Source: Terriglobia bacterium (GTDB taxonomy: Bacteria > Acidobacteriota > Terriglobia > Acidiferrales > UBA7541). From it: a stretch of 64,000 nucleotides of DNA. The stretch is from contig JAIQGG010000003.1 of NCBI GenBank assembly GCA_020072785.1, positions 62,001-126,000 on the forward strand, in the 5' to 3' direction. Positions 18,930-25,792 of the stretch are shown here, in pieces. A program made the position numbers and the translations under genes. The notes beneath the pieces are model-generated. The model ran no database searches. It was not told where the DNA came from and worked only from the letters and a program-made list of their open reading frames with translations. Positions within the stretch are counted from its first letter, which is position 1, and each line of letters opens with the position of its first letter.

Positions 18930-19379
18930 TCAGGTCCGCGAAGTCTTCTTCAGATCCCGCAGCAATTCTTTCTTGCGTACCACGGTGCGCGCCATCACAT
19001 CCAGCGTGGTGTCCTGGAGATACTCCAGAAAGCCCGCGCGCAAATCCTTCCACTGGTCGTGCAGCGGACAGGGGGCATCGTCCGAACAGCGCTCCAACCC
19101 CACAGCGCACTCCTGAAACTGATCAAGCCCGTCGGTCGCCGCCACCACGTCACGCAGGGTGATGAGTTCCGCGCGGCGCGCCAGTTGGAAGCCGCCGCCG
19201 GGCCCGCGCCGCGACTTGAGCAGCCCCTTTCGCACCAGTTCCTGCAGAATCTTGCTGAGCACCGGAGCCGGGAGGCTTTCCGCCGTGGCAATCTCATCGG
19301 CACGTGCCGTCCCGTCCTTGGCAGACGCCAGATTGGACAGGGCCCGGATTGCGTACTCACAAGGTTTTGAATAGATCAT
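18930..19379 (-). CDS. Rrf2 family transcriptional regulator, Fe-S type (first of a divergent pair)
   Basis: A 149-residue winged-helix regulator beginning MIYSKPCEYAIRALSNLA, the Rrf2 N-terminal helix. The recognition helix region is LPAPVLSKILQELVRKGLL, with RRGPGGGFQLAR as the wing. Three cysteines in ECAVGLERCSDDAPCPLHD match the cluster-binding spacing of IscR/NsrR-type Rrf2 proteins, so it likely holds an iron-sulfur cluster and senses oxygen, nitric oxide or iron status. It is divergent from a second Rrf2 gene with about 200 bases between them. A good promoter lies at 19399-19427. Confidence 0.92.
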   Translation of the reverse strand: MIYSKPCEYAIRALSNLASAKDGTARADEIATAESLPAPVLSKILQELVRKGLLKSRRGPGGGFQLARRAELITLRDVVAATDGLDQFQECAVGLERCSDDAPCPLHDQWKDLRAGFLEYLQDTTLDVMARTVVRKKELLRDLKKTSRT

Positions 19380-20251: not shown

Positions 20252-23029
20252 ATGAAGCGTCAGAGATCTCTCACCGTGTGGCTGCTGGCCGCCACAGGTC
20301 TCTATCTCTACGCCTTTCCGTCCCCCACCATCTTCTATTTCGGTATTGTTCTGCTGCACACCGCCATCGGCCTATTGCTCGCCGCCCTCCTCCTGCCGCT
20401 CCTCGCGCGTCTCACCACCATCGAGAGCCTCGCCGCGCGCCTCGCCTGGATCCTCCTCGCCGCGGGCGCGGCCATCGGCGTCGCCTTCCTCTTTGTGGGA
20501 ACCCCGCACCGCCTGCATGCCTGGCTCCTGGCGCACATTGTTCTGTCCGTTGCCGGTACGCTGCTCCTAGCGGCCTCCTGGCTCGCTGCGCGCGGACAAC
20601 CCGCCGGCGCGAGCCAATTCGCGCTTCGTTTCGCAAGCTTGCTGCTGTTCACGGCCGCCGTCGCCTACGGCGCCTGGTGGGCTCGCGAAATCCGCTGGCG
20701 CGACTCCAATCGCATCATCAATCCCCCCATCGCTCCCGCGACGATGGACCAGGAAGGCGATGGCTCCCAGGGCCCCTTCTTCCCCAGTTCCGCGCAGACC
20801 CTCCACGGCGGCACCATCCCCGCCCAATATTTCATGCAGTCCGAAGCCTGCCAGCGCTGCCACAAGGACATCTACGACCAGTGGAACAGCTCCGCGCACC
20901 ACTTTTCTTCCTTCAACAATCAGTGGTACCGCAAGAGCGTCGAGTACATGCAGGACGTCAATGGCGTAAAGCCCTCGAAGTGGTGCGCCGGCTGCCATGA
21001 TCCCGCCCTGCTCTTCAGCGGCGAGTTCGACAAGCCCATCAACCAGATCATCGACCTCCCCGAATCCAAGGCCGGCTTGAGCTGCCTGATGTGCCACAGC
21101 ATCGTCCGGGTAAAAAGCACCATGGGCCAGGGCGATTTCGTCCTCGAATACCCGAAACTCCACAAACTCGCGGCCAGCAAGAATCCGCTTTTGCGCACCG
21201 TCCACGATTTCCTCGTCCGCCTGAATCCCGAGCCCCACCGCCGCACCTTCCTCAAGCCCTTCATGCAAACCCAGACCCCGGAGTTTTGCGCGAGCTGCCA
21301 CAAGGTGCATCTCGACGTCCCGGTGAACAACTACCGCTGGCTGCGCGGCTTCAACGAGTACGACAACTGGCAGGCCAGCGGCGTTTCCGGCGAAGGCGCG
21401 CGCTCCTTCTACTATCCCACCGCTCCTCTGAAATGCCCCGATTGCCACATGCCGCTCGTTCCCTCCCAAGACGACGGCAACATCAACGGCTTCGTCCACT
21501 CCCACCGCTTTCCCGGCGCGAACACCGCCCTGCCCTTCGCCAACCAGGACCAGACGCAGCTCGACCTGAGCCGCGAATTCCTGCAGAACGGCAACCTTTC
21601 CGTGGATATCTTCGCGGTCTCCCCCGCAGGGCCGCAGCAGGCCGGCGGTGAAGCCCCCGGCCCCGAACTGGCCACCACTTTCGCTGTCGGCGAGGAAGCC
21701 GAACAGCCCCGCCTCGCCGGACCCGCCGGAGAAGCGCGCCCGCTCACCGCGCCGCTCGGCCGCGTCGACGCCGCCGTCCGCCGTGACGACGACGTGCGCG
21801 TGGATGTCGTCGTGCGCACCAAGAAAGTCGGCCACTTCTTCCCCGGCGGCACCGTGGACGCCTTCGACGTCTGGCTCGAGTTGCAAGCCACCGATGAAAA
21901 AGGCCAGACTCTCTTCTGGAGCGGCAAGGTCGAAGACGGCGGCAAGGGCCCCGTCGATCCCGGGGCGCATTTCTACCGCTCCCTGCAAATCGACGCTCAC
22001 GGCAACCCCATCAACAAGCGCAATGCCTGGGCCACGCGTTCCGTCGTCTACGTCCACCTCATCCCACCCGGCGCCGCGGACACCGTTCACTACCGGCTGC
22101 ATATCCCGGAGAACTCCGGCGAAAAAATCACGCTCCACGCCAAGCTCAACTACCGCAAGTTCGCCTGGTGGAACACGCAGTTTTCCTACGCCGGGGTCCG
22201 CGACCCCGGCGGTGCACATTCCGGCGTGACCAAGGATTATGATGACGGCAAGTGGGTCTTCACCGGCGACACCTCACACGTTTCCGGAAACCTCCACCAG
22301 GTCCCCGATCTCCCCATCATCACCCTCGCCGAAGACACCAAGTCGCTCCGCGTCCTCCCTCGCACCGCGCCCGCACCGCCGCCGCAACTCGCGCTCGCCA
22401 AGGAGGACTGGGTGCGCTGGAACGACTACGGCATCGGACTCTTCCTGCAGGGCGATCTCCGCGGCGCGGAATCCGCCTTCGAAACGCTGACCCAGCTGGA
22501 CCCGCGGAATCCCGACGGCTGGGTAAACATTGGCCGCGTCCGCGTGCAGGAAGGCGCGATCCCCGGCGCACGCGCCGCGCTCGAAAAAGCGCTGGCCCTG
22601 CAGCCCGGCCTGGCCCGTGCCAACTACTTCTACGCCCGCGTTCTCAAGAGTGAGAGCCGCTTCGACGATGCCGCCGCACGCCTGCGCTCCGTCCTCGCGC
22701 AATACCCGCGCGACCGCGTCGTGCGCAACGAGCTTGGACGCGTCCTCTTCATCCAGAAGCGCTACGCCGGCGCCGTGCAGGAATTCCTGCAGGTTTTGCA
22801 GATCGATCCCGAAGACCTGCAAGCCAATTACAATCTGATGCTCTGCTATAACGGCCTCGGCGACGAACAACGCGCCAACGAGTACAAGGCGCTCTATCTC
22901 CGCTTCAAGGCCGATGAATCCGCACAGGCCATTACCGGCCCCTATCGCCAGGCGCATCCCCAGGACAACAACGAGCGCCAGCCGGTCCACGAACACGTTT
23001 CCGTGGCCCTGGGTCCCGCCCGCCAATGA
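20252..23029 (+). CDS. Membrane-anchored penta-haem c-type cytochrome with TPR domain
   Basis: A 925-residue protein with three regions. Residues 1-160 contain about four hydrophobic segments. Residues 195-420 hold five CxxCH haem sites: CQRCH (about 200), CAGCH (245), CLMCH (278), CASCH (347) and CPDCH (395). A beta-rich segment with VGHFFPGGTVDAFDVWLEL follows. The last 200 residues are TPR repeats (AWVRWNDYGIGLFLQGDL-like and later helices). The haems should face the periplasm and carry electrons. The stop codon overlaps the start of the next gene (ATGA), so the two are translationally coupled. Function beyond electron transfer is unknown. Confidence 0.9.
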   Translation: MKRQRSLTVWLLAATGLYLYAFPSPTIFYFGIVLLHTAIGLLLAALLLPLLARLTTIESLAARLAWILLAAGAAIGVAFLFVGTPHRLHAWLLAHIVLSVAGTLLLAASWLAARGQPAGASQFALRFASLLLFTAAVAYGAWWAREIRWRDSNRIINPPIAPATMDQEGDGSQGPFFPSSAQTLHGGTIPAQYFMQSEACQRCHKDIYDQWNSSAHHFSSFNNQWYRKSVEYMQDVNGVKPSKWCAGCHDPALLFSGEFDKPINQIIDLPESKAGLSCLMCHSIVRVKSTMGQGDFVLEYPKLHKLAASKNPLLRTVHDFLVRLNPEPHRRTFLKPFMQTQTPEFCASCHKVHLDVPVNNYRWLRGFNEYDNWQASGVSGEGARSFYYPTAPLKCPDCHMPLVPSQDDGNINGFVHSHRFPGANTALPFANQDQTQLDLSREFLQNGNLSVDIFAVSPAGPQQAGGEAPGPELATTFAVGEEAEQPRLAGPAGEARPLTAPLGRVDAAVRRDDDVRVDVVVRTKKVGHFFPGGTVDAFDVWLELQATDEKGQTLFWSGKVEDGGKGPVDPGAHFYRSLQIDAHGNPINKRNAWATRSVVYVHLIPPGAADTVHYRLHIPENSGEKITLHAKLNYRKFAWWNTQFSYAGVRDPGGAHSGVTKDYDDGKWVFTGDTSHVSGNLHQVPDLPIITLAEDTKSLRVLPRTAPAPPPQLALAKEDWVRWNDYGIGLFLQGDLRGAESAFETLTQLDPRNPDGWVNIGRVRVQEGAIPGARAALEKALALQPGLARANYFYARVLKSESRFDDAAARLRSVLAQYPRDRVVRNELGRVLFIQKRYAGAVQEFLQVLQIDPEDLQANYNLMLCYNGLGDEQRANEYKALYLRFKADESAQAITGPYRQAHPQDNNERQPVHEHVSVALGPARQ

Positions 23030-24738
23030 AAAGAGGCCGCGTGAAAACGTTCCTTGCAGCGGTCCTCGTCTGGACCCTTGCTGCGTTTCTGCTCCTCCAA
23101 GCCGGGCAGGGTGCTACTTCCCTGTCCTCTCCGGTGGCCTTTCGCGACGTCACCCAGCAGGCCAGCATTCACTTTGTCCACAACACCGGAGCCTTCGGGA
23201 AAAAATTTCTCCCCGAAACGCTCGGCCCCGGCGTGGCCTTCCTCGACTACGACAACGACGGCTGGCCCGACATTTTCCTCGCCAACGGAATGGACTGGCC
23301 CGGCCATGTCCGGCAGCGCTCCACCCCGCGCCTCTACCACAACAATCACGACGGCACCTTCACCGACGTCACCCGCAAGGCCGGTCTGGCCATCGCGATG
23401 TACGGCATGGGAGTAACCGTCGGCGATTTCGACAACGACGGCTTCGACGATCTCTTCCTCACCGCCTTCGGCCAGAGCCGGCTCTTCCACAACAATGGCA
23501 ACGGCACTTTCACCGATGTCACCCAGAAGGCCGGACTCGGCGGCATCAAGGAGTTCAGCACCAGCGCCGCCTGGGTCGATTACGACAAGGACGGGCACCT
23601 CGATCTCGTCGTCGCCAATTACGTCCAATGGTCCCCGGAGACCGACTTGTACTGCACGCTCACTGGAAAAACGAAGTCCTACTGCACGCCGGAATCCTAC
23701 CAAGGCGTTTCCGTGCGCCTCTGGCGCAATCGCGGCAACGGCACCTTCGAAGACGCGACCCAGAAAGCCGGCCTCGCCGATCCCACCGCGAAAACCCTGG
23801 GCGTCACCGTTCTCGACTACGACAACGACGGCTGGCCCGATCTGCTCTTCGCCAACGACACCCAGCCCAACAAGCTCTACCGCAATAACGGCAACGGCAC
23901 CTTCACCGAAAAAGGCGTCATCGCCGGCATCGCCTTCAGCGAAGACGGCGTGGCCCGCGCGGGCATGGGCATCGACGCCGCCGACTACGACCGCTCCGGC
24001 CATTCCAGCATCCTCATCAGCAATTTCTCCAATCAGATGCTCGCCCTCTATCACAACGAGGGCAACGGCCTCTTCGTCGACGTCGCTCCCGCCTCCGAGA
24101 TCGGCCGCGCTTCCCTCCTCTCCCTCGGCTTCGCTTGCTTTTTCTTCGATTACGATCTTGACGGCTGGCCGGATATTTTCGTTGCCAACGGCCACCTGGA
24201 CCCGGACATTCAGCGCGTCCAGGCCGACGTCCGCTACGCGCAGCCGCCGCATCTTTTCCGCAATCTCGGCAACGGGCAATTTCAGGAAGCCGCGCGTACC
24301 ATGGGCGCCGCCTTCAACCGGCCCCGCGTCGCCCGCGGCGCCGCCTACGCCGACATCAATAATGACGGCCGGCTCGACCTCCTCGTCGCCACCAACGGCG
24401 GCTCTCCCGCCCTTTTCCTCAACCAGGGCGGCGGCAACAACAGCCTTCGCGTGAAGCTCGTGGGCACAAAATCCAATCGCGACGGGATCGGCGCCGTCGT
24501 CCGCCTCACCTCCGGCAGCGCTGTGCAGTCCCAGATGCTGCGCAGCGGCTCCAGTTATCTTTCCGCGAGCGAACTCGTTCTCACCTTTGGTCTCGGCACG
24601 CTGTCCCGGGCCGACGCCATCGAAATCCGCTGGCCCAGCGGCCAGACCGACAAACTCAGCAACATCGCCGCGGGACAGACCATCACCGTCACCGAAGAAA
24701 AAGGCATCACCGCGTCGCGGGCCTACGCCAGGAGATAG
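23026..24738 (+). CDS. CRTAC1-type protein: VCBS/FG-GAP repeats plus ASPIC/UnbV domain
   Basis: A 570-residue secreted protein. A signal peptide (KTFLAAVLVWTLAAFLLLQ) is followed by a beta-propeller of FG-GAP/VCBS repeats, visible as recurring YDNDGWPDIFLANG, FDNDGFDDLFLTAFG, YDKDGHLDLVVANY and similar calcium-binding DxDxDG loops. The C-terminal ASPIC/UnbV domain (about 480-560) has NNSLRVKLVGTKSNRDGIGA and IRWPSGQTDKL. Such proteins are exported and bind ligands; the enzymatic role is unproven. The ATG overlaps the cytochrome stop by four bases, implying a stoichiometric partner. Confidence 0.92.
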   Translation: MKRGRVKTFLAAVLVWTLAAFLLLQAGQGATSLSSPVAFRDVTQQASIHFVHNTGAFGKKFLPETLGPGVAFLDYDNDGWPDIFLANGMDWPGHVRQRSTPRLYHNNHDGTFTDVTRKAGLAIAMYGMGVTVGDFDNDGFDDLFLTAFGQSRLFHNNGNGTFTDVTQKAGLGGIKEFSTSAAWVDYDKDGHLDLVVANYVQWSPETDLYCTLTGKTKSYCTPESYQGVSVRLWRNRGNGTFEDATQKAGLADPTAKTLGVTVLDYDNDGWPDLLFANDTQPNKLYRNNGNGTFTEKGVIAGIAFSEDGVARAGMGIDAADYDRSGHSSILISNFSNQMLALYHNEGNGLFVDVAPASEIGRASLLSLGFACFFFDYDLDGWPDIFVANGHLDPDIQRVQADVRYAQPPHLFRNLGNGQFQEAARTMGAAFNRPRVARGAAYADINNDGRLDLLVATNGGSPALFLNQGGGNNSLRVKLVGTKSNRDGIGAVVRLTSGSAVQSQMLRSGSSYLSASELVLTFGLGTLSRADAIEIRWPSGQTDKLSNIAAGQTITVTEEKGITASRAYARR

Positions 24739-24850: not shown

Positions 24851-25792
24851 ATGGAGAACCTTATGAGTCTCATGCGTTCGCTGCTGCTGGCGGCTTCGCA
24901 AAATAGTTCGCTCCGCGAGCGCGCCTCGCGTTACCGTTTCGTCCGCCGCAGCGTCTCCCGCTTCATGCCCGGTGAAACCCTCGACGACGCCCTGCTGGCC
25001 GCACAGGCCCTGGGCCTCCGCAAGATCGGCGCGGTCTTCACGCATCTCGGCGAAAACATCAACGATGCGGGCGAAGCCAAGCAAGTCACCGAACACTACC
25101 TGGGCGCGCTCGAGCGCATCCACGGGCAGAACCTCCGTGCGGAGATTTCCGTCAAGCTCACCCAGCTCGGCTTGGACCTTTCTCCCGACCTCTGCTTCGC
25201 CAACCTGCAAGGGATCATCGCCCGCGAAAACAAAAACTCCACCGTGTGGATCGATATGGAAGCCAGCAACTATGTGGATGTGACGCTGGATCTCTACCGC
25301 CGCGCCCTCGCGGCCTTCCCCAACGTCGGCATCTGCCTGCAGGCCTATCTCTACCGCACCAAAGACGACCTCGCGAAGCTTCTGCCCCTGCGCCCCTCCA
25401 TCCGCCTGGTCAAAGGCGCCTACAGCGAGCCGCCGGAGGTCGCTTTCCCCCGCAAGCGCGACGTCGACGAAAACTATTTCGCCCTGGCCCAGGAAATGCT
25501 CGGCGCCCAGGCCGCCAGGCAGTGCCTCCGCGCCGCCTTCGGCACCCATGACGTTACCCTCATCCGCCGCATCGCCGCTTTTGCCGCGCAGCAAGGCTTC
25601 CCCAAAGACGCCCTCGAAGTCCAGATGCTCTTCGGAATCCAGCGCGCCGAGCAGGAGCGTCTGGCCAGCGAAGGTTACCGCTCCATCGTTTTGGTTGCCT
25701 ACGGTACCTACTGGTACGCCTGGTTCATGCGCCGCCTCGCCGAACGCCCCGCCAATCTGTGGTTTTTGATCCGCAACGTTTTTGCAGGTTGA
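24851..25792 (+). CDS. Proline dehydrogenase (monofunctional PRODH)
   Basis: A 313-residue FAD enzyme that oxidises L-proline to pyrroline-5-carboxylate and feeds electrons to the quinone pool. PRODH blocks are present in order: FTHLGENI, EISVKLTQLGLDLS, VWIDMEASNYVD, GICLQAYLYRTKDDL, IRLVKGAYSEP, FGTHD and the C-terminal YWYAWFMRRLAERPAN. There is no P5C dehydrogenase domain, so it is the short type found alone in many Gram-negative and Gram-positive groups. Start ATG 24851 follows GGGAGATGG. No transporter or P5C dehydrogenase gene lies beside it. Confidence 0.95.
   Translation: MENLMSLMRSLLLAASQNSSLRERASRYRFVRRSVSRFMPGETLDDALLAAQALGLRKIGAVFTHLGENINDAGEAKQVTEHYLGALERIHGQNLRAEISVKLTQLGLDLSPDLCFANLQGIIARENKNSTVWIDMEASNYVDVTLDLYRRALAAFPNVGICLQAYLYRTKDDLAKLLPLRPSIRLVKGAYSEPPEVAFPRKRDVDENYFALAQEMLGAQAARQCLRAAFGTHDVTLIRRIAAFAAQQGFPKDALEVQMLFGIQRAEQERLASEGYRSIVLVAYGTYWYAWFMRRLAERPANLWFLIRNVFAG

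Follow-up and report, generated by a model that had tools for sequence, protein, structure and literature searches.

The window, i.e. the whole stretch of 64,000 nucleotides analysed, derives from a soil bacterium and carries a two-gene unit formed by a cytochrome gene (P1) and a CRTAC1-type gene (P2), the features of which are listed in Table 1. An overlap of the P1 stop with the P2 start had been read from the letters alone in an earlier note, and is borne out: coordinates and frames are right, and ATGA is common to both genes. The five haem sites and the TPR domain assigned by the same note to one chain are also there, as five CXXCH motifs and a TPR match above the Pfam cut-off. The roughly four membrane helices counted in P1 become five in the AlphaFold2 model.

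Table 1. Features of the P1/P2 locus (positions in the window; aa, amino acid residues)
Feature	Position	Strand	Remarks
Second Rrf2-family regulator	18930..19379	-	opposite strand; three spaced Cys
Rrf2-family regulator directly upstream of P1	19574..20071	+	three Cys, C-x6-C-x5-C spacing; possible regulator
P1 (gene 1)	20252..23029	+	925 aa; membrane-anchored pentahaem cytochrome with beta-sandwich and TPR domain
P1 membrane module	20252..20707	+	aa 1-152; five predicted helices; predicted b-haem site
Codon of invariant His36, helix 2	20357..20359	+
Codon of invariant His95, helix 4	20534..20536	+
Haem motif 1, CQRCH	20849..20863	+	P1 aa 200-204
Haem motif 2, CAGCH	20984..20998	+	P1 aa 245-249
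Haem motif 3, CLMCH	21083..21097	+	P1 aa 278-282
Haem motif 4, CASCH	21287..21301	+	P1 aa 346-350
Haem motif 5, CPDCH	21434..21448	+	P1 aa 395-399
P1 beta-sandwich domain	21596..22357	+	aa 449-702; invariant H528; with haem domain matches 5ze8
P1 TPR domain	22400..22954	+	aa 717-901; Pfam match above cut-off, and model
P1 C-terminal motif NNERQxxHEH	22964..22996	+	aa 905-915; H913 and H915 conserved 98% in 41 orthologues
P1 stop/P2 start overlap, ATGA	23026..23029	+	4 bp common to both frames
P2 (gene 2)	23026..24738	+	570 aa; exported CRTAC1-type FG-GAP propeller with UnbV/ASPIC domain
P2 export signal or anchor, N-terminal	23026..23124	+	hydrophobic aa 6-24
P2 UnbV/ASPIC domain	24484..24687	+	aa 487-554

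Among the loci clustered, the pair of Rrf2-family genes upstream of P1 is found in the window and in one close relative; two-component regulators adjoin the unit in other lineages. A proline dehydrogenase gene (24851-25792) follows on the same strand about 110 bases after P2, and is the same neighbour in the clustered loci L065 and L066. The outer neighbours (amidase, pseudouridine synthase, sugar and amino-acid transporters, carbon-nitrogen hydrolase) differ by lineage and are taken here as general chromosomal surroundings. As regulators and outer neighbours vary, no hint of a substrate comes from the neighbourhood.

The AlphaFold2 model of P1 (mean pLDDT 83.7) is made up of membrane helices, haem domain, beta-sandwich and TPR domain. 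The ten cysteines and five histidines of the haem motifs are invariant in sets of 41 and of 50 orthologues, the first motif being CX4CH in 8 of the 50; motifs, motif invariance and the coupling of the two genes are established at the level of sequence. P1 matches Cytochrome_C554 (PF13435; 36.6 bits, gathering cut-off 20.8). Beyond the histidines of the motifs and of the membrane module, H216, H329, H353, H418 and H528 are invariant in the 50 orthologues, a pattern compatible with five bis-His haems. In the wide family only the distal histidines H216, H329, H418 and H528 are invariant, and H353 varies. The active-site haem of the nitrite reductase NrfA has a CXXCK motif; no such motif occurs in P1, in which all five are CXXCH. 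The CXXCK motif of NrfA is also mentioned in the available text of PMC6976685.

The fold of the haem domain is supported by the model, in which the haem and beta part has the pentahaem cytochrome c552 fold (5ze8; PHC/ExtKL family). The cytochrome of Thermochromatium tepidum, 5ze8, is the first-ranking Foldseek match, aligns with this part in structure comparison (Z 14.2, rmsd 3.8, 338 residues), and is recovered also by a sequence profile (E 1.4e-6). It shares with P1 the fold of a pentahaem and a beta domain, but its chain covers residues 189-699 of P1 only, the five-helix membrane module, the TPR domain and the coupled CRTAC1 gene being additions of P1. In the available text of PMC11976967, cytochrome c552 is placed near Geobacter ExtKL and the PHC family of cable bacteria. 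Five c-haems and an Ig-like or beta domain, in a related fold, link P1 to ExtKL, Gsu2801 and the cable-bacteria proteins sPHC and lPHC (same text). PHC proteins are described there as having signal peptides, some being fused to truncated haemoglobin; sPHC and lPHC are classed as potentially catalytic, with a pentacoordinate haem, and extracellular electron transfer is proposed for the related proteins. In contrast to P1, with its predicted b-haem, a b-haem membrane module, a TPR domain and a CRTAC1 partner go unmentioned for PHC in that available text.

A fold search with the whole of P1 returned mostly TPR matches, and the membrane module was consequently predicted alone. Its helices span residues 2-21, 27-53, 60-82, 86-113 and 120-152; with five helices and the N-terminus inside, the haem domain would lie outside the cytoplasm. 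Mean column identity in the module is 36% over 50 orthologues, and H36, G40 and H95 are the only invariant residues. Distant relatives that possess the membrane domain keep both H36 and H95; relatives without it have neither. The best structural matches include bundles that bind haem, namely the designed proteins 4D2/m4D2, the cytochrome b of E. coli Hyd-1 and superoxide oxidase, with Wolinella FrdC lower down; TRP channels are mixed into the list, and Z scores of 8-10 are weak for helical bundles. Pfam gave no reliable family for the window's own module, cytochrome b not being recognised; PF01292 (cytochrome b561 / Ni_hydr_CYTB) matched weakly 5 of the 50 modules (best E 0.16), that of the window not among them. 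The module resembles cytochrome b561-type proteins and hydrogenase cytochrome b subunits in being a helical membrane bundle with conserved histidines, but differs from them in its single invariant histidine pair and in having no Pfam match. From the three invariant residues, the module is predicted to hold a b-haem at H36/H95; given the weak and mixed structural neighbours, the b-haem is a prediction rather than a finding. That P1 is a quinone-linked b-haem cytochrome is slightly favoured. Some cytochrome relatives devoid of the membrane module still adjoin CRTAC1 genes, so that quinone linkage cannot hold for the whole family.

The TPR domain of P1 matches the CcmH-type family PF23914. In the distant relatives L198 and L202 the cytochrome is devoid of TPRs and the CRTAC1 partner features a TPR domain at the C-terminus; the TPR module thus belongs to the pair, and either partner can carry it. 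A further TPR-FG-GAP-ASPIC (TPR-CRTAC1) protein is encoded in 38 of the neighbourhoods clustered. An apparent fusion of P1 to P2 in L079 was rejected, as the single frame crosses unknown bases and a frameshifted TPR region.

P2 matches FG-GAP repeats (213.3 bits, E 5e-64) and UnbV_ASPIC (71.9 bits, E 4e-20), both above the Pfam cut-offs, and carries seven calcium-type Dx[DN]x[DS]G loops; it is a propeller-shaped, exported protein that probably binds calcium. Among solved structures, the nearest to P2 in sequence is that of human CRTAC1 (PDB 9etn, E 6e-21), an FG-GAP propeller as well, but an animal extracellular protein. We know of no cytochrome partner for human CRTAC1. No lipobox was found at the N-terminus of P2 in 50 orthologues; Tat-like signals are present in two orthologues, and some distant relatives start with an uncleaved-looking membrane anchor, from which partner and cytochrome domain are predicted to sit on the same, periplasmic side. 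P2 contains three cysteines in all, with one conserved pair, C210/C220, invariant, and no haem motif. The transfer of electrons to or from the CRTAC1 protein proposed by the earlier note is thus unsupported, and nothing points to the secretion role suggested for the pair. What is supported of the note's reading is the conserved functional unit.

Of 396 sampled genomes of the phylum, about 40 encode a full-length P1 orthologue with an identity of roughly 50% or higher, and 126 any relative at E 1e-10. In the genus of the window's bacterium, 29 of 36 genomes have a P1 copy (near full-length, split or partial). Scanning named genomes returned at least 584 P1 relatives, the best 80 of which are mostly from Acidobacteriota and include records labelled Poribacteria, KSB1 and Calditrichia. 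The pairing extends well beyond this genome, a P2 orthologue adjoining P1 in 63 of 72 assessable named loci. Among 50 loci with an assigned P2 start, 29 have a -4 or -1 base overlap with the P1 stop. Of the 9 genomes in which P1 is unlinked or its neighbour unreadable, 8 have a P2 relative (48-60% identity) at another place. The strict coupling claimed from the window holds there, but is relaxed elsewhere: in same-genus relatives an additional gene separates P1 from P2, and in some genomes the two are unlinked. Twenty distant relatives, 33-44% identical in the haem part, were also inspected: 16 adjoin a CRTAC1 gene, located upstream or downstream.

Within the genus, 28 of the 29 genomes that have P1 also encode a P2 of at least 74% identity, and none of the 7 genomes lacking P1 does so. 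In the lone exception, P1 is present just as a fragment at the edge of a contig. The co-occurrence has a hypergeometric p of about 1e-6 (calculated by hand), a value inflated by shared operon descent; a Fisher test used 28/0/0/7, leaving out the contig-edge exception. The pairwise distances of P1 are correlated with those of P2 (r 0.80 over 32 loci), which is what co-inheritance would give. For both proteins the predicted site of action lies outside the cytoplasm. The two outcomes named by the earlier note as refuting its reading, a pairing confined to this genome and proteins in different compartments, are thus not what is seen or predicted. It is near certain that P1 and P2 are a conserved functional unit, and quite probable that they form a physical complex.

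The P1 surroundings differ between loci. In the same-genus loci L107-L112 and L068, another CRTAC1 gene with about 55% identity to P2 lies upstream of P1, as does, in several of them, a histidine kinase/response regulator pair; both are absent in the window. Between P1 and P2, same-genus relatives have an AhpD-like, peroxidase-related gene (L107:7748-8311; also L105, L108-L112 and L068), which is absent between the two genes in the window; a further copy is found elsewhere on its locus in L128 (16150-16716, minus strand), with the motif NKCWY-TGA. An in-frame TGA is present in 9 of 9 copies read (L128 included); in the gene between P1 and P2 it stands in a motif NRCxY-TGA followed by a conserved hairpin. 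All 8 genomes tested for selA carry it, that of the window among them. The AhpD-like protein is, on these grounds, probably a selenoprotein. In L177 (7384-15654) the P1 orthologue is overlapped by a PQQ dehydrogenase gene instead of P2, and another PQQ dehydrogenase and a YNCE/NHL-type propeller protein are encoded next.

Three UnbV_ASPIC genes are present in the window's genome, two of them overlapped by a cytochrome gene. The second CRTAC1 gene, C2 (L224:6016-9899), has a 4 bp overlap with a gene for a fused propeller and di-haem protein, which resembles two subunits of hydrazine synthase, beta at E 6e-33 and gamma at E 1.5e-24. The third, C3 (L223:5834-11643), has downstream of it, on the same strand, a gene for an outer-membrane beta-barrel protein with a carboxypeptidase-regulatory domain. 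The HZS-like alpha / beta-gamma clusters contain a CRTAC1 gene (PMC12758564), and the C2 arrangement echoes this linkage. As in P1/P2, the CRTAC1 gene is linked in those clusters to c-type cytochrome genes, some with c554 domains (PMC12758564), but their haem protein appears to be of a different family: hydrazine synthase chains are missing among the matches listed in a single-sequence PDB search with P1, which are mostly TPR chains, as in a profile search with the haem and beta part, for which the matches listed are 5ze8 and MccSep only. No description of the pair was found in the literature; P1/P2 is undescribed in the papers found, and its component parts are known families. No paper was found that assigns a function to UnbV/ASPIC-CRTAC1 proteins in bacteria.

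Acidobacteriota abound in CRTAC1 genes, one genome of the genus having as many as 34 of the CRTAC1 type, and such genes might adjoin P1 incidentally. This reading is already contradicted and has hardly any chance of being right: even with 34 such genes in a total of several thousand, chance adjacency would be about 1%, against the 63 of 72 loci, the orthologue-level co-occurrence and the paired distant relatives, and the window's genome has three such genes only. P1 could itself be a catalytic reductase or oxidase, with an open site at one of the five haems, P2 only stabilising it or recruiting the substrate. The four distal histidines of the wide family argue for this, as does the classing of sPHC and lPHC (PMC11976967, available text), but H353, the fifth candidate ligand, is invariant in close orthologues, as five bis-His haems would have it, and CXXCK is not seen; we regard a catalytic P1 as unlikely.

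Since the pentahaem c552/ExtKL family is the one to which its haem domain is related, and related proteins have been proposed to serve extracellular electron transfer (PMC11976967, available text), P1 might act in such a chain, as proposed for Geobacter ExtKL, with P2 as a surface or outer-membrane adaptor. The predicted anchoring of P1 is however in the inner membrane, the uncleaved-looking anchor is found at the start of some distant P2 relatives, and a porin-cytochrome conduit was not recognised among the annotated neighbours of P1, which makes an extracellular route rather improbable. TPR domains often serve assembly, and the CcmH-type match in P1, together with the Tat-like signals of two P2 orthologues, would suit an assembly or export device, the 'secretion pair' of the earlier note, made up by the TPR domain and P2 with the cytochrome as client or redox sensor. 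Invariant haem and membrane histidines favour electron transfer over chaperoning, and no secretion machinery was recognised among the annotated linked genes, and we hold this device to be highly improbable.

The reading preferred here, with a probability of roughly 0.55, is that P1 and P2 make up an inner-membrane, periplasm-facing redox complex combining a b-haem, a quinone link, five c-haems and a TPR-docked propeller. In such a complex one b-haem would be held between His36 (helix 2) and His95 (helix 4) of the P1 membrane module, which would exchange electrons with the quinone pool. Electrons would run along the five c-haems, predicted from the motifs, of the pentahaem c552/ExtKL-type domain. 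The exported calcium propeller P2 may dock, on the periplasmic side, on the C-terminal TPR arm of P1, as suggested by the conserved coupling, the co-occurrence and the movement of the TPR domain between partners. P2 would be a structural or partner-binding subunit presenting a donor or acceptor, and not an electron carrier.

The P1/P2 unit looks like an unrecognised respiratory complex. More tentatively, and with the odds somewhat against it, CRTAC1 propellers may generally serve as accessory subunits of multihaem complexes in the bacterial periplasm, and P1/P2 the prototype of an unrecognised quinone-linked respiratory complex spread across Acidobacteriota and genomes labelled Poribacteria, KSB1 and Calditrichia. 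The module yields testable predictions, a b-haem at H36/H95 and the docking of TPR domain and propeller. The conserved link of a CRTAC1 protein to a defined haem protein provides a direct handle on the function of the UnbV/ASPIC-CRTAC1 proteins of bacteria, heavily duplicated in these soil organisms; if P1 is quinone-linked, Acidobacteriota would own an extra, unannotated respiratory branch.
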